Below, piece after piece: positions 12,195 through 16,714 of a stretch of 16,717 bases of DNA. The stretch is taken from NCBI GenBank assembly GCA_017384185.1, contig JAFNUH010000066.1:1-16717 (forward strand). The letters are read 5' to 3'. The notes below the pieces were generated by a model. The model ran no database searches, had not been told where the DNA came from, and worked only from the letters and a program-made list of their open reading frames with translations. The stretch comes from Alistipes sp. (GTDB taxonomy: Bacteria; Bacteroidota; Bacteroidia; Bacteroidales; Rikenellaceae). Every line of letters begins with the position of its first letter. Position 1 is the stretch's first letter. The translations under genes were made by a program, and so were the position numbers.

Positions 12195-13568
12195 ATGTTC
12201 AAAAAGTTTATCAACTTCTACAAGACAAGCTCTCCCGCTAAGCCGCTCGAGATAAGCGACGAGGCGAAGGATAAGCTCTACAAGAAGCTGCGCTTTCAGG
12301 CATTTGCGGCAGGTACGATTGGTTATAGCCTCTATTACGTGTGCCGTACAAGTTTGAACGTGGTGAAGAAGCCTATCCTCGATAGTGGAGCGCTCGATGC
12401 TACGCAGTTGGGTATTATTGGCTCATCACTGCTCTTTGCTTACGCTATTGGTAAGTTTGTAAACGGTTTCTTGGCCGATTACAGCAACATTAAGCGTTTT
12501 ATGGCTACGGGTCTTGCAATCTCGGCTGTGGCTAACCTGTTGATGGGTGTGCTGGGTATGGCTTCGGGAGCGGTAATCTCGTCGGCTGTGCTCTTTATCG
12601 CAATGTCAATTATGTGGGCTATCAACGGATGGTCGCAGGCTATGGGTTCACCCCCTGCCGTTATCGCCCTTTCACGTTGGTATCCGCTCAATAAGCGTGG
12701 TACGTACTACGGTTTCTTCTCGGCGAGCCACAATATCGGCGAGTTCTTCTCATTCCTCTTCGTAGGTAGCTTGGTTGCTACGGCAGGTTGGCAGTGGGGA
12801 TTCTTCGGTTCGACTATTGCGGGTGTGCTGGGTGTGATTTTTATCATTATCTTTATGCACGACACTCCCGAGAGCAAGGGTCTGCCCCCTATCAGCGTTT
12901 TGACGAACGAGGGCGAGAAGAAGACCGACACACAGTCTGTAAAGGATGTGCAGAAGTTGGCTTTGCGTACACCTGCGGTGTGGATTCTGGCTTTGGCAAG
13001 TGCATTTATGTATATCAGCCGTTATGCTATTAACGGTTGGGGTGTACTCTACTTGCAGGAGGCTAAGGGCTTCGACCTGGTGGATGCAACACAGATTATC
13101 TCTGTTAATGCTCTCTTGGGTATTATCGGTACTGTATTCTCAGGCTGGATCTCTGACCGCTTCTTCAAGGGTAGCCGTAACATCCCCGCATTGTTTGCCG
13201 GTGTGTTGAATACAATTGGTCTTATCCTCTTCGTATATGGCGGTAATAGCTGGTTTGTGAATGTCTTGAGTATGGTTATCTTCGGTATCGCTGTCGGTGT
13301 GCTCATCAGCTTCCTTGGTGGTTTGATGGCTGTAGATGTTGTGCCTCGTAACGCTACGGGCGCCGCTCTGGGTGTTGTGGGTATGGCAAGCTACGCAGCA
13401 GCAGGTATTCAGGATGTTGTCAGCGGTGCGCTTATCGATGCAGGTAAGACAGTTGTTGATGGTGTTACTACCTATGACTTCAGTACTGCCGCTATCTTCT
13501 GGATTGCAGCATCAATCATATCATTTATGTTGCCCATCCTCAACTGGCGACGTAAGGTTCAGGAGTAA
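12195..13568 (+). CDS. MFS transporter, organophosphate:phosphate antiporter family (GlpT/UhpT-like)
   Basis: This is a 12-helix inner-membrane carrier of about 457 residues that would exchange an organic phosphate such as glycerol-3-phosphate or a hexose phosphate for inorganic phosphate. GlpT-like landmarks are Arg51 in VCRTSLN, His179 in FSASHNIGE and Arg276 in ISRYAINGW, which line up with the substrate-site Arg45, His165 and Arg269 of E. coli GlpT. The segments LADYSNIKRFMATGL, WSQAMGSPPAV and HDTPESKGLPPI also match the family. I chose the ATG at 12195 (MFKKFINFYK) because the promoter lies downstream of the earlier in-frame starts. The gene stands alone between divergent and convergent neighbours, ending at a strong terminator. 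The exact substrate cannot be read from the sequence, so I give no symbol. Confidence 0.88.
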   Translation: MFKKFINFYKTSSPAKPLEISDEAKDKLYKKLRFQAFAAGTIGYSLYYVCRTSLNVVKKPILDSGALDATQLGIIGSSLLFAYAIGKFVNGFLADYSNIKRFMATGLAISAVANLLMGVLGMASGAVISSAVLFIAMSIMWAINGWSQAMGSPPAVIALSRWYPLNKRGTYYGFFSASHNIGEFFSFLFVGSLVATAGWQWGFFGSTIAGVLGVIFIIIFMHDTPESKGLPPISVLTNEGEKKTDTQSVKDVQKLALRTPAVWILALASAFMYISRYAINGWGVLYLQEAKGFDLVDATQIISVNALLGIIGTVFSGWISDRFFKGSRNIPALFAGVLNTIGLILFVYGGNSWFVNVLSMVIFGIAVGVLISFLGGLMAVDVVPRNATGAALGVVGMASYAAAGIQDVVSGALIDAGKTVVDGVTTYDFSTAAIFWIAASIISFMLPILNWRRKVQE

Positions 13569-13641: not shown

Positions 13642-14292
13642 TTATTCTTTATTCTTCTCCAACCACTCCAAACGGCGCTGGTCGGGCAGATGTTTAATCT
13701 TAAACTCCTCAAATGTAGCCGTGAAGCCATTACCATCGGGGCAGGCTGCCATCATACCCACCATTACAGGAGTGTTGTCTTCGAGCCAGCAGTTGCGCAT
13801 CATAGTATAGTGTTTGTCGTCAAACGAGTAGAAAATCTCCACGGCATCGAGACGACGCACAGCCTTTATCCAAACAAAATCCACTGGTTTATCCAGCTCG
13901 ATAACGCTCCAGTCGCTGGTGTGGTGTGTAACAACAGCACTAAGATTGTACTTGCCATCGACGTACTCAATACCGGTCTTGATGTAGTTCTCCTTGTCGA
14001 TTCGAAGCATAAGCCCTGCTTGGTCGAAACGCACCTTGTAGTCGCCAGAAATCTTTACTTTAACCTCGAACTCACCACCTCGTACCGTGTAGAGAAATGG
14101 CGCATCGTCAACAGTAAAGCCGTAGTGAGATATTCGCCAATAGTCGCTCTGCGGTGTAACATCCATCATAAGGCGACCATCCTTTATCTCCCAACTCTCG
14201 GGTTCGTTGAACCACTGCATATTCTCTAGTGTCTGCGCATATATGCACATCGTGCCACAAAGGCACAGAAGAGTTAAAAATAGCTTTTTCAT
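13642..14292 (-). CDS. Exported DUF1349 protein (concanavalin A-like fold)
   Basis: This protein of about 216 residues has a Sec signal peptide, MKKLFLTLLC and onward, with likely cleavage after IYA (residue 19), placing it in the periplasm or outside. The mature part matches the DUF1349 family, whose members have a concanavalin A-like beta-sandwich fold. Visible marks are W-x-I-x-DGRL-M near the start, TVRGGEFEVKVKISGDYKVRFDQ in the middle, then DQAGLMLRIDKENYIKTGIEYVDG and TVVTHHTSDWSVI-like strands. The family has been linked to carbohydrate-related roles, but no reaction is established. The ATG at 14292 is preferred; the frame is open to 14328, but those 12 codons would spoil the signal peptide. 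It stands alone, converging on the transporter gene and diverging from the TPR regulator gene. Confidence 0.85.
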   Translation of the reverse strand: MKKLFLTLLCLCGTMCIYAQTLENMQWFNEPESWEIKDGRLMMDVTPQSDYWRISHYGFTVDDAPFLYTVRGGEFEVKVKISGDYKVRFDQAGLMLRIDKENYIKTGIEYVDGKYNLSAVVTHHTSDWSVIELDKPVDFVWIKAVRRLDAVEIFYSFDDKHYTMMRNCWLEDNTPVMVGMMAACPDGNGFTATFEEFKIKHLPDQRRLEWLEKNKE

Positions 14293-14309: not shown

Positions 14310-14335
14310 TATCTACAAAATTAATCAATTTTGTG
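14310..14335 (-). promoter_or_regulatory. Possible promoter and inverted repeat upstream of the DUF1349 gene
   Basis: On the minus strand TAATTTTG (plus-strand CAAAATTA at 14316-14323) fits the -7 box, but I see no TTTG at the right distance. The same bases form an inverted repeat CAAAATT-AATC-AATTTTG (14316-14333), which might be an operator. The rest of the 305-base gap between 14293 and 14597 holds the promoter region of the next gene, A/T-rich sequence, and no supportable gene. Confidence 0.4.
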
Positions 14336-14515
14336 TTACAGCATTAGCCTTGTGCAAATTTGTTTTGACAATTAATCGTATTAGACTCTATAAGTCTCTG
14401 CATGATGAGGTAATACTATGTGATATATATGTTTATATTACTCTTGAAGCATCAAATAACAGTATCCTACATTTTTACCTATACGAAGTATGAAAACCAT
14501 ACAAAAACAGCAAAT

Positions 14516-14533
14516 GTAAATCGAAATGTAAAC
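14516..14533 (+). promoter_or_regulatory. Putative operator upstream of the TPR/HTH regulator gene
   Basis: GTAAATCGAAATGTAAAC is a direct repeat of GTAAA(C/T) with a 12-base period. The same 18-base block occurs at 16657-16674 with 16 identical bases. In both places its last base is 33 bases before the first base of the -7 box. It also overlaps the palindrome TAAACA-TTAG-TGTTTA (14529-14544). It is a candidate binding site for the regulator encoded just downstream. Confidence 0.6.
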
Positions 14534-14540
14534 ATTAGTG

Positions 14541-14580
14541 TTTAGGTCACCACGTGTAATTTGTATACTTTTGTAGTCAG
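14541..14580 (+). promoter_or_regulatory. Promoter of the TPR/HTH regulator gene
   Basis: TACTTTTG (14566-14573) is a perfect -7 box. The -33 region is weak: TTTA at 14541-14544 with a 21-base spacer is the best match. A weak -33 box beside the direct repeat at 14516-14533 fits an activated promoter. The start of transcription should be near 14580, about 18 bases before the ATG at 14598. Confidence 0.7.
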
Positions 14581-14597
14581 GAATAAAAGACACAACA

Positions 14598-16556
14598 ATG
14601 ATGAAAAAGAATATTTGTATATCGCTTTGTAGCAAAAAAATATTACTCTCCTTTACATTTATTCTGGCATACTGCGCCGCCAGCGTTGCCAGCGATAATC
14701 TCTTCGAACAAGCGAGGATGTTGCAACGTGACGGGAAGTACGATGAGGCTATCGATACTTATAAAGCATACCTGTTGCAACCGATTAACGAGGATGAGTT
14801 TACCAAGCAGCAGATGGTTGTGTACACCGATGCGCTGGTGCAACTGATGAATACCTACCAGAGCAAGGGAGAGCCCGAGGCTTGTATCACAACTCTTCAA
14901 GAGCTCTTCAATGCATCCCCCATTTTGCAAAAGCAATGTTTGAGAGATTACTACTCAGTGATGGGCTACGCCTTGTCACGTACCGAGAGGATGGAGGAGG
15001 CAGAAGAGATTACTATGAGAGTATTCTCGATCCCGCTTCGTCACGCCACTCCTGAACGTTATTTCCGTGATTATGCTTACGCCGCAGCAGTATTTTACAG
15101 CAATCCTAATTACCAGAGAGAGGTTATGGATTGGTGCCAAGAGGCTTTGCTTCAAGCTGAGCAATGTGGGAATACACAACGCAAGCAGTGGGTTACGGCT
15201 ATGTTAGGCTCGCTTTACAAGCGAAACGGACGTATTAACAAAGCGCTGGAGCTTTTTCAGCAGAGTAAAGTTGAGGCACAGGAGAGAAATGATGATTTGG
15301 GTGTGCTCAACAGCCTGCATATGTTAATTGATCTCTTCCTCTATTGGGATGTGCCCGAATATGCCAACTTGTATGCTTCGGAAGCCATCGATGTGGAAAA
15401 ACGTATGACGGCGAAGAACCCAATGGTCTCGGCACAAACTTACATAAATAAAGGGCGTGCGTTGCAGCAACTTGGAGAGGCTGATTCTGTGACTATCTAT
15501 ACCGAAAAGGCAAGAGAGCTATGTCAGTCATTGCCATACAATAGCGGTATGGTCGATGTCGATCTTCTGCACGGCATCTACTTGACCGAGAAGGGCGGAG
15601 ACTCTCTGAATTTAGGTATTCACGAACTACAGCAGGTGGCTCGCCAGGGAACAGCCGTGAACCGAGCAAGGGCATATCACCAGCTGGCGCAGACCTATTT
15701 GAAAAACGAGAAGAACGATATGGCGGAGACAGCGCTGGACAGTATGTATATGTTGCTGAATCAAACCGATTCTCCTATCTATATCCACGTGGATTATAAG
15801 CCTATTATAAATCACTACCTAAAATATAGGAATCAGCCCAAGGTTGAGCAATATACCCGAATGATGCTCCAAGAGCAGCAGGCATTGAAGGAGAAGCGTC
15901 TAAACTTTAATCTTATTGATGCCATCACCGATTTGCATACCGAGCAGCAGCAAAAGGAGCTGAAGATTATGCAACTCGAGCAGACCAACCAGCGCCTTTG
16001 GTTTTTAGTTTGTGTAGCCTTGTCCGTAATAATTATTTCTGTGATTGTTGCGCTCCTTTTCCGCCAAAAGAAGCAACATAAACTACAGATGAAGCAGGCG
16101 GATGATAAGCTCGCAATGTTGGTTGACGAGCTAAATCAGACAAATGCCGAGAAGGAGATGATATCGCAGGAGATTGACGACATAATGAACGATAAGGACA
16201 ACCGCCAGGAGTTGGAGACCTTGACCCCCTCTATCCTCCTTAAAAATGGCGAGCCTAAGTTCCGCCAACGCTTTGAGTTGCTGTATCCTCTTTTTCTTCC
16301 TCGACTACGAGAGCGAGTACCGTCGATTACCCGTCGTGAGGAGTTGCTCTCGATGCTTATTGTCCTGAAGCAGGATAACAAGGAGATAGCCGAGTTGTTG
16401 GCAATTGCACCACGAAGCGTCTTGATGCTTCGCCATCGCTTCCGCCAAAAGATAGGAATGGCTGTCGATAGTTCGTTGGAAGATTTTATCGAAGATATAC
16501 TGAAGCTTCCCAAAAACAGCGCAAATTCGTATATAAGTCGCACAGAACAGCCATAA
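14598..16556 (+). CDS. Membrane-spanning TPR regulator with C-terminal LuxR-like helix-turn-helix
   Basis: This 652-residue protein looks like a one-component transmembrane transcription regulator. A signal peptide or first anchor (about 3-31) precedes a long helical region of tetratricopeptide-like repeats (about 34-425), for example DNLFEQARMLQRDGKYDEAI and GSLYKRNGRINKALELF. A single membrane segment follows at 467-488 (LWFLVCVALSV onward), then a cytoplasmic coiled coil (489-540) and a C-terminal helix-turn-helix (about 577-622; TRREELLSMLIVLKQDNKEI, then APRSVLMLRHRFRQKIG). TPRs would sit in the periplasm, sensing a partner, and the HTH would touch DNA in the cytoplasm. Similar proteins are common in Bacteroidales, often beside surface-polysaccharide or fimbrial loci. 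The start may be the ATG at 14598 or the next codon. A shared 18-base block before this gene and before the right-edge promoter suggests its targets. The ligand is unknown. Confidence 0.8.
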   Translation: MMKKNICISLCSKKILLSFTFILAYCAASVASDNLFEQARMLQRDGKYDEAIDTYKAYLLQPINEDEFTKQQMVVYTDALVQLMNTYQSKGEPEACITTLQELFNASPILQKQCLRDYYSVMGYALSRTERMEEAEEITMRVFSIPLRHATPERYFRDYAYAAAVFYSNPNYQREVMDWCQEALLQAEQCGNTQRKQWVTAMLGSLYKRNGRINKALELFQQSKVEAQERNDDLGVLNSLHMLIDLFLYWDVPEYANLYASEAIDVEKRMTAKNPMVSAQTYINKGRALQQLGEADSVTIYTEKARELCQSLPYNSGMVDVDLLHGIYLTEKGGDSLNLGIHELQQVARQGTAVNRARAYHQLAQTYLKNEKNDMAETALDSMYMLLNQTDSPIYIHVDYKPIINHYLKYRNQPKVEQYTRMMLQEQQALKEKRLNFNLIDAITDLHTEQQQKELKIMQLEQTNQRLWFLVCVALSVIIISVIVALLFRQKKQHKLQMKQADDKLAMLVDELNQTNAEKEMISQEIDDIMNDKDNRQELETLTPSILLKNGEPKFRQRFELLYPLFLPRLRERVPSITRREELLSMLIVLKQDNKEIAELLAIAPRSVLMLRHRFRQKIGMAVDSSLEDFIEDILKLPKNSANSYISRTEQP

Positions 16557-16656
16557 ATAGCCTTTGGAAATATGGGCGATTACGATTATGGCTATTGTCG
16601 ATAGTTAATATATATTCATATTTACCGCCTGTGGGTTTATTGTGTAAACAGATGTG

Positions 16657-16674
16657 GTAAACCAAAATGTAAAC
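16657..16674 (+). promoter_or_regulatory. Putative operator at the right edge
   Basis: GTAAACCAAAATGTAAAC matches the block at 14516-14533 in 16 of 18 bases. A third GTAAAC lies 13 bases further upstream (16644-16649), where it is also one arm of GTTTA-TTGTG-TAAAC. The block lies just upstream of a promoter-like pair of boxes, with the same spacing as in the first copy. The 161 bases from 16557 to the edge contain no supportable gene and no clear terminator for the regulator gene. Confidence 0.6.
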
Positions 16675-16683
16675 AGCCCTTTT

Positions 16684-16714
16684 TTTGTACAAATATTATA
16701 ATTTCGCAGTTTTG
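16684..16714 (+). promoter_or_regulatory. Putative promoter for a gene beyond the right edge
   Basis: TTTG at 16684-16687 is followed after exactly 19 bases by CAGTTTTG (16707-16714), which differs from TAnnTTTG only at its first base. Transcription would start just outside the window, on the plus strand. The matching position of the upstream direct repeat strengthens the call. Confidence 0.55.

Follow-up and report, generated by a model that had tools for sequence, protein, structure and literature searches.

Several described regulators join a sensor to a DNA-binding domain and invite comparison with the locus reported here, which lies at the right end of the Alistipes sp. contig JAFNUH010000066.1 (16,717 bases; the whole contig is called the window below). 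The locus consists of a gene for a predicted membrane-anchored regulator and of short direct repeats in front of it and behind it. MalT, a soluble ATPase with direct-repeat boxes, has in common with this regulator a tetratricopeptide repeat (TPR) sensor and a LuxR-like C-terminal helix-turn-helix (HTH), and TPR_MalT matched regulator residues 176-390 below its cut-off. The regulator differs from MalT by a predicted transmembrane helix and by the lack of an ATPase match.

SusR-like regulators of the starch and dextran polysaccharide utilization loci of Bacteroides are membrane proteins unique to Bacteroidetes, with a periplasmic sensor and a cytoplasmic C-terminal DNA-binding part (PMC3878776, in excerpt). 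The predicted membrane layout of the Alistipes regulator resembles theirs and direct-repeat operators are predicted in both. However, in the same excerpt the two sites of a SusR-like motif are separated by 67 or 77 bases from centre to centre, whereas a period of 12 bases was found here in 28 of 28 loci. No SusC or SusD was among the neighbours named by Pfam, which covered the genes beside the locus, and the two systems are likened by description only. The hybrid two-component systems of Bacteroides, in which a membrane sensor is fused to a DNA-binding domain, have predicted one-face direct-repeat operators like the arrangement here, but their sites average 21 bases apart (both from the excerpt of PMC3878776). 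Neither a histidine kinase nor a receiver domain was found in the regulator (13 Pfam families at E <=0.01). Finally, the BT3442 family (NCBIfam NF053779; B. thetaiotaomicron BT_3442) is represented in the excerpt of PMC2954219 by a TPR protein whose cluster holds lipoproteins and potential pore-forming proteins; it is not called a regulator there. Regulator residues 562-626 weakly matched positions 488-554 of 563 of the NF053779 model (E 0.0043), which is the same C-terminal stretch; with 15.8 bits versus a cut-off of 940 the regulator stands outside that family. A literature search, to which most subscription journals were out of reach, found no paper that describes the regulator or the operator in its title or abstract.

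For the Alistipes locus we consider it likely that the repeats on either side of the regulator gene are operators of its product, a predicted membrane-anchored one-component transcription factor. It would bind them as a head-to-tail dimer and probably activate its own promoter together with the promoters of neighbouring genes. The predicted features are as follows.

14465..14483, minus strand: operator 3 (R-type), TATAGGTAAAAATGTAGGA, back-to-back with operator 1 (opposite-strand reading; R-type site in 28 of 28 loci)
14515..14533, plus strand: operator 1 (F-type), TGTAAATCGAAATGTAAAC, direct repeat of period 12, 18-base form GTAAATCGAAATGTAAAC at 14516-14533 (sequence; conserved in orthologous loci)
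14541..14546, plus strand: weak -33-like element TTTAGG (column counts around TTT(A/G)G in 28 loci; -33 consensus TTTG in the excerpt of PMC7366714)
14566..14573, plus strand: -7 box TACTTTTG of the regulator promoter (TAnnTTTG 31-32 bases behind the site in 28 of 28 loci)
14598..16556, plus strand: regulator gene, 652 amino acids (open reading frame list; Pfam TPR and weak GerE; AlphaFold2 model)
15996..16061, plus strand: predicted transmembrane helix, residues 467-488 (Kyte-Doolittle maximum 3.24, windows over residues 469-488)
16326..16460, plus strand: HTH region, residues 577-621, LuxR/GerE-like (weak GerE match; LLAIAPRSVLMLRHRFRQK invariance)
16657..16674, plus strand: operator 2 (F-type), GTAAACCAAAATGTAAAC, behind the regulator (sequence; second F-type sites in 4 of 29 loci)
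16707..16714, plus strand: -7-like box CAGTTTTG, without the TA, of a promoter for a gene beyond the contig end (sequence)

Conservation and distribution of the direct repeats

The first-pass annotation of the window had reported two 18-base direct repeats sharing 16 of 18 bases, at equal distance from -7 boxes at 14566 and 16707. The sequence confirmed both statements. Two of the 18 positions differ between GTAAATCGAAATGTAAAC and GTAAACCAAAATGTAAAC, each of which repeats GTAAA(C/T) with period 12, and each -7-like box begins 33 bases past the last base of its own site (32 bases in between). Offsets are given below as bases in between, that is 32 for the box TAnnTTTG and 33 for its part ANNTTTG. 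The Bacteroidetes-type promoter consensus used was -7 TAnnTTTG and -33 TTTG (PMC7366714, in excerpt); a review gives the -7 element as TANNTTTGY (PMC12632263, in excerpt). The annotation had placed the repeats one helical turn apart, which is inexact, 12 bases being about 1.14 turns. Both of its repeats are real, but it overlooked the third, divergent one on the minus strand.

The window corresponds to the complete contig G000:C91 of a genome of 1.77 Mb in 408 contigs that is 74.5% complete. In this genome the degenerate pattern GTAAAYCRAAATGTAAAC had exactly two matches, both at this locus, and none when reversed. Thus, the repeats are beyond chance. The single site GTAAACCAAAATGTAAAC with up to 3 mismatches gave 5 matches versus 3 for its reversed control.

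Conservation beside orthologous regulators, one of the three tests that the annotation had named for its reading, was examined in loci from genome contigs (22 loci), from 12 of 151 same-genus genomes (at least 60% identity) and from 3 of 393 genomes of the order (E <=1e-30); 20 further same-genus genomes held only weak, mostly partial matches to the regulator. After removal of L022 (29 bases upstream only) and of duplicate genome copies (G113 = L021; G379/G170 = L025; G108, G036, G073 and G143 = L009, L012, L014 and L016) there were 28 distinct loci, counting the window. For each ortholog, up to 1.5-2 kb of upstream sequence was searched for the best site. Site 1 was present in all 28 loci with up to 5 mismatches to GTAAACCRAAATGTAAAC and in 23 with up to 2 (0 mismatches in 13 loci, 1 in 9, 2 in 1, 3 in 1, 4 in 3 and 5 in 1). 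It was followed in every case by TAnnTTTG, 32 bases on in 25 loci and 31 bases on in 3, and it always lies wholly upstream of the -33 element in a single orientation and with a single spacing. The mean pairwise identity over the 28 loci was 0.87 within the site versus 0.45 in the next 32 bases. None of 2294 overlapping AT-rich control windows of 159 bases, drawn from 15 of the loci, held an F-type site with up to 3 mismatches. A gene sits between site and regulator in L015 and L019 (DUF3667, by Pfam in L015 and by resemblance in L019), and in G144 separate contigs hold the site (C13) and the regulator (C17), which are presumably linked.

The same intergenic regions carry on the opposite strand the R-type repeat TRTARACYRAAATGTAGGA, in 28 of 28 loci with up to 5 mismatches and in 26 with up to 4, a level reached by 0 of the 2294 control windows; the R-type scores are favoured in that their consensus derives from these very loci. 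The left end of the R-type site precedes the start of site 1 by 48-51 bases in 25 of 28 loci; the distance is 56 bases in L024, 58 in L011 and 71 in L025. It has its own -7 element, ANNTTTG at offset 32-34 in 19 of 28 loci or ANNTT(T/C)G at 31-34 in 23. The arrangement is thus one of two outward-pointing operators, each at a fixed distance from its own promoter. Both types have the core AAATGTA, the 12-base period and the distance to the -7 box in common.

Within the genus, the exact pattern was found in 5 of 151 genomes, each of which belongs to the 12 that have an ortholog (Fisher p 1.3e-6), and a second Fisher test for restriction to carriers gave p = 4e-13; both values ignore kinship. Across the order, 2 of the 393 genomes had GTAAACCRAAATGTAAAC exactly, and these 2 are among the 3 that carry the regulator gene; 12 further genomes of the order carry single-mismatch matches. 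The search for a composite of site and promoter, TGTAWAC-N5-TGTAWAC-N28-38-ANNTTTG, covered 29 carriers and the first 51 genomes of the genus that lack an ortholog (a few of them with weak protein matches). It gave 23 matches in 21 of the 29 carriers, none in the 51 non-carriers and none in the reversed control. The gap was always 32 or 33 although 28-38 was permitted. All 23 matches stand at the regulator locus, 21 at its promoter (that of G144 by inference) and 2 behind it (G151, G171). With GTAAAYCRAAATGTAAAC at only two places in the window's genome, this distribution also bore out the second test of the annotation, that the block is not scattered at random.

The regulator has, judged from its open reading frame, Pfam, hydrophobicity and AlphaFold2, a signal or transmembrane start (hydrophobic N-terminus), a TPR solenoid, a transmembrane helix, a long helix and a C-terminal HTH. 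In the AlphaFold2 model the solenoid spans about residues 48-409, with blocks mostly near 90 in predicted local distance difference test (pLDDT), followed by a single long helix (413-530) across the hydrophobic stretch and a small helical domain (553-635). The protein is predicted to combine a periplasmic TPR sensor, one transmembrane helix and a cytoplasmic LuxR-like HTH. GerE (PF00196) matched all 22 aligned members at E <=0.1 (best 1.3e-4). The putative recognition region LLAIAPRSVLMLRHRFRQK is identical in 22 of 22, an invariance that fits the nearly invariant operator. The GerE fold comprises four helices; the model of the C-terminal domain is helical (mean pLDDT 75.1), and its Foldseek matches of ranks 1-3 and 6 of 8 were VraR, FixJ, CviR and LiaR, all at E >1. 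A hypothetical protein led its PDB sequence matches (E 0.029), which also included EsrB, FixJ and GerE (E 0.1-0.36); the whole protein matched no PDB sequence. Among the best 50 of 1484 fold matches of the full model, mainly TPR-type solenoid proteins were found and no DNA-binding regulator of like build; they included Rap peptide receptors among many eukaryotic TPR proteins. Since the TPR fold resembles, among many others, these receptors, a peptide or protein partner may be guessed as the signal.

Interpretation and rival explanations

In the proposed mechanism a signal would be sensed by the periplasmic TPR part, the cytoplasmic HTH would bind the repeats as a head-to-tail dimer, and the bound protein would contact RNA polymerase and so activate its own promoter and those of adjacent genes. 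Operators 1 (for the regulator itself) and 3 (for the divergent gene) would form one two-way control region, to which operator 2 would have been added in some lineages for a downstream operon. We infer that the regulator protein itself is the binder and that the direction of control is activation, the latter because the site always has the same orientation and lies 31-32 bases from the -7 box, which fits a contact with RNA polymerase. The predicted autoregulation is well supported by the candidate site in front of the orthologous regulator, or of its small operon, in 28 of 28 loci (in one presumably, across contigs) and by the restriction of the composite to carriers and to this locus.

Several points weigh against this proposal. 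The 28 loci are not 28 independent tests, because they are related, and the sites of L019, L021, L131 and L132 have 4-5 mismatches. The composite was missed in 8 of 29 carriers (G000, G016, G035, G074, G103, G163, G164 and G167), among them the window's genome, whose sites read TGTAAATC and GGTAAACC. The bare site with up to 2 mismatches gave 50 matches versus 26 reversed (33 handles, equal to 28 distinct carrier genomes); therefore loose matches away from the locus mean little. Co-occurrence of site and regulator is partly trivial because the site lies in the gene's own promoter, and the argument rests on its absence elsewhere. On the side of the protein, the GerE score lies below the Pfam gathering cut-off of 23.5 (whole protein 16.3 bits, C-terminal part 19.7 bits). 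No PDB fold matched the C-terminal model at E <1 (8 Foldseek matches), and the HTH assignment is weak; the LuxR-like class of the predicted HTH thus rests on weak scores. In the window the expected -7 box of operator 3 is absent, so the divergent promoter may be dead or lost there. The proximal half-site of the R-type repeat is TGTAGGA versus TGTAAAC in the F-type. The trans-regulon is perhaps small at most. The scan for it covered the carrier G545 (1,907,266 bases of about 2.1 Mb, 121 stretches), the one genome in which the R-type was also searched genome-wide. Besides the locus it gave an F-type composite with 3 mismatches before an outer-membrane beta-barrel-like gene (L260:6404; OMP_b-brl match below cut-off), an R-type one with 2 mismatches before a lipoprotein-like gene (L261, minus strand, 6607; by eye) and a further composite with 4 mismatches before a secreted-protein-like gene (L288:14964). 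At up to 5 mismatches, the locus included, there were 5 F-type and 7 R-type composites (some in both) versus 1 and 3 reversed, and perhaps two to three trans-targets might exist.

The half-site difference leads to a first alternative, that operator 1 alone belongs to the regulator, while the minus-strand element is the site of a separate factor or an element of its own promoter. A second factor could bind such a site, and the R-type promoter has a conserved TTATTTG block that is absent from the forward promoter. On the other hand, the two types agree in core, period and distance to the -7 box, operators 1 and 3 keep a fixed distance from each other in 25 of 28 loci, and in L128 an R-type promoter replaces the downstream second site. 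We regard this explanation as somewhat unlikely.

The regulator could also bind the sites and repress, with negative feedback on its own level and neighbours kept off until a signal arrives. The fixed spacing is compatible with repression too. Autoregulators often repress, and the -33 element of the forward promoters is close to TTTG, so that these promoters might work unaided. However, sites that block a promoter more commonly overlap it and differ in position, whereas the operator lies wholly upstream of -33 with one orientation and spacing in all 28 loci and in 4 of 4 second sites. This makes repression unlikely.

Binding by another transcription factor, encoded elsewhere, that controls the locus is improbable. 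Similar half-sites may be used by others, as the half-site TGTAAACC recurs with period 12 some 45-47 bases before the start codon of the low-molecular-weight protein tyrosine phosphatase (LMW-PTP) in 5 of 27 non-carrier loci listed. A broader factor would, however, have composites elsewhere and in non-carriers, and all 23 matches are at the locus with 0 in the 51 non-carriers. Conservation by common descent or chance without function is hardly credible, although the loci are related and each repeat is AT-rich, in view of the site identity of 0.87 versus 0.45 between site and -7 box and of the 0 of 2294 control windows at up to 3 mismatches to F or 4 to R.

Neighbouring genes and other repeats

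The regulator, as preferred here an activator, is likely to control itself and whichever neighbour adjoins it, often a predicted surface protein, because the pair of sites is constant in 28 genomes while the gene on the other side varies. In the window this gene is the following.

13642..14292, minus strand: divergent gene, DUF1349 (PF07081; Pfam 2.9e-66); start 14292 chosen, the open reading frame list having TTG at 14328

No divergent gene was named in 7 of 28 loci (L006, L015, L018, L019, L128, L100 and G144). By Pfam the divergent gene of the others encodes giant leucine-rich repeat (LRR) proteins of the LRR_5 (BspA) type with 771-2342 amino acids in L007, L017, L020, L023, L024 and L025, DUF3667 in L009, L012, L014, L016 and L135, and DUF3575 in L021, L131, L132 and L133 (with DUF3868 beside it in L021, the one locus tested for it). 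DUF4252 was found in L011, a NusG-like antiterminator in L010 and a CarboxypepD_reg-like domain below cut-off in L008 and L026; the gene of L013 gave no match. DUF3667 also stands behind the site of G144, by sequence resemblance alone.

Behind the regulator (161 bases searched in the window, 400 in the other loci) F-type second sites were found in 4 of 29 loci, namely the window, L006, L013 and L096, each with ANNTTTG at offset 33; in a fifth, L128, an R-type promoter stands where the second site would be. Site 2 is the less conserved part of the arrangement. The first-pass annotation had let the regulator control itself and a downstream operon. Its first half is a well-supported prediction, but the second applies to these few loci, and the commoner second target appears from the sequences to be the divergent gene, via the minus-strand operator, rather than the downstream operon. 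The second site stands before DUF3667 in L006, and before a gene for a STAS-APH fusion and a Y_phosphatase3-type gene in L013 and L096 (by Pfam and by resemblance, respectively). The genes behind it in L013 (10063-15005), for a STAS-APH fusion, Y_phosphatase3, NMT1 and Cache-HAMP-SpoIIE, are reminiscent of a partner-switching signalling cassette; L096 resembles the first two.

As the gene past the right edge of the window, a DUF3667 gene of the same genome on C255 was considered and rejected, as no exact overlap of at least 15 bases was found with the end of the window, an LRR gene lies in front of it and its best upstream match has 7 mismatches. C255 (L127) begins inside this BspA-type LRR gene; DUF3667 and a DUF4252-like gene come next, the latter with a match that falls just short of the cut-off. 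The contig end truncates the LRR gene, however, so that with the missing LRR start in between, C255 might still be the continuation of the window past operator 2.

LMW-PTP was tried as a trans-target. GTAAACYACAATGTAAAC lies about 45 bases before its start codon in G000, G035, G103 and G167 and occurs exactly in 3 of 151 genus genomes, all carriers. The candidate failed its control: the gene is present in 133 of 151 genomes, the repeats (up to 5 mismatches, -45 to -47) recur in 5 of the 27 non-carrier loci listed, the 27 being the best-scoring LMW-PTP loci and no random draw, and only 3 of 11 carriers examined have the repeat with up to 1 mismatch. A TGTAAACC-N5-TGTAAACC-like repeat precedes LMW-PTP at about 45-47 bases in some genomes, with and without the regulator, presumably as a different factor's site or a different element (G000:C80:658-675, i.e. 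L003 and L107; also L100, L101, L102, L139, L142, L145, L150 and L154).

Other repeats of period 12 were seen at or just before open reading frames resembling phage-type integrases by eye, namely GTAAACCATAGTGTAAAC (L090 at 3677, G103:C18:84307) and GTAAACCGTAGTGTAAAC (L098 at 1430, G160:C81:104048). A tandem array of the 12-base unit TGTAAACCAAGA in G429:C63:45787-45828 (L136) produced three overlapping single-mismatch matches. In the window, 12195-13568 encodes a major facilitator superfamily transporter akin to phosphoglycerate, glycerol-3-phosphate and hexose-phosphate transporters (TIGR00881, GlpT and UhpC matches, all below cut-offs).

Implications for the regulator family

In Bacteroidales many membrane proteins combine a TPR sensor with an HTH tail, and their targets have yet to be found. 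The family described here gains a predicted operator, a promoter geometry and adjacent targets, and also a motif for the targets of related regulators. We tentatively consider that the regulator and the back-to-back operator pair might form a portable two-way switch, with the divergent slot as a docking place in which unrelated genes are swapped, with the control region conserved nearly base for base. If so, the same membrane sensor would govern new surface cargo from the outset. The turnover of neighbours hints at a way in which new surface proteins may be placed under existing control in these bacteria.

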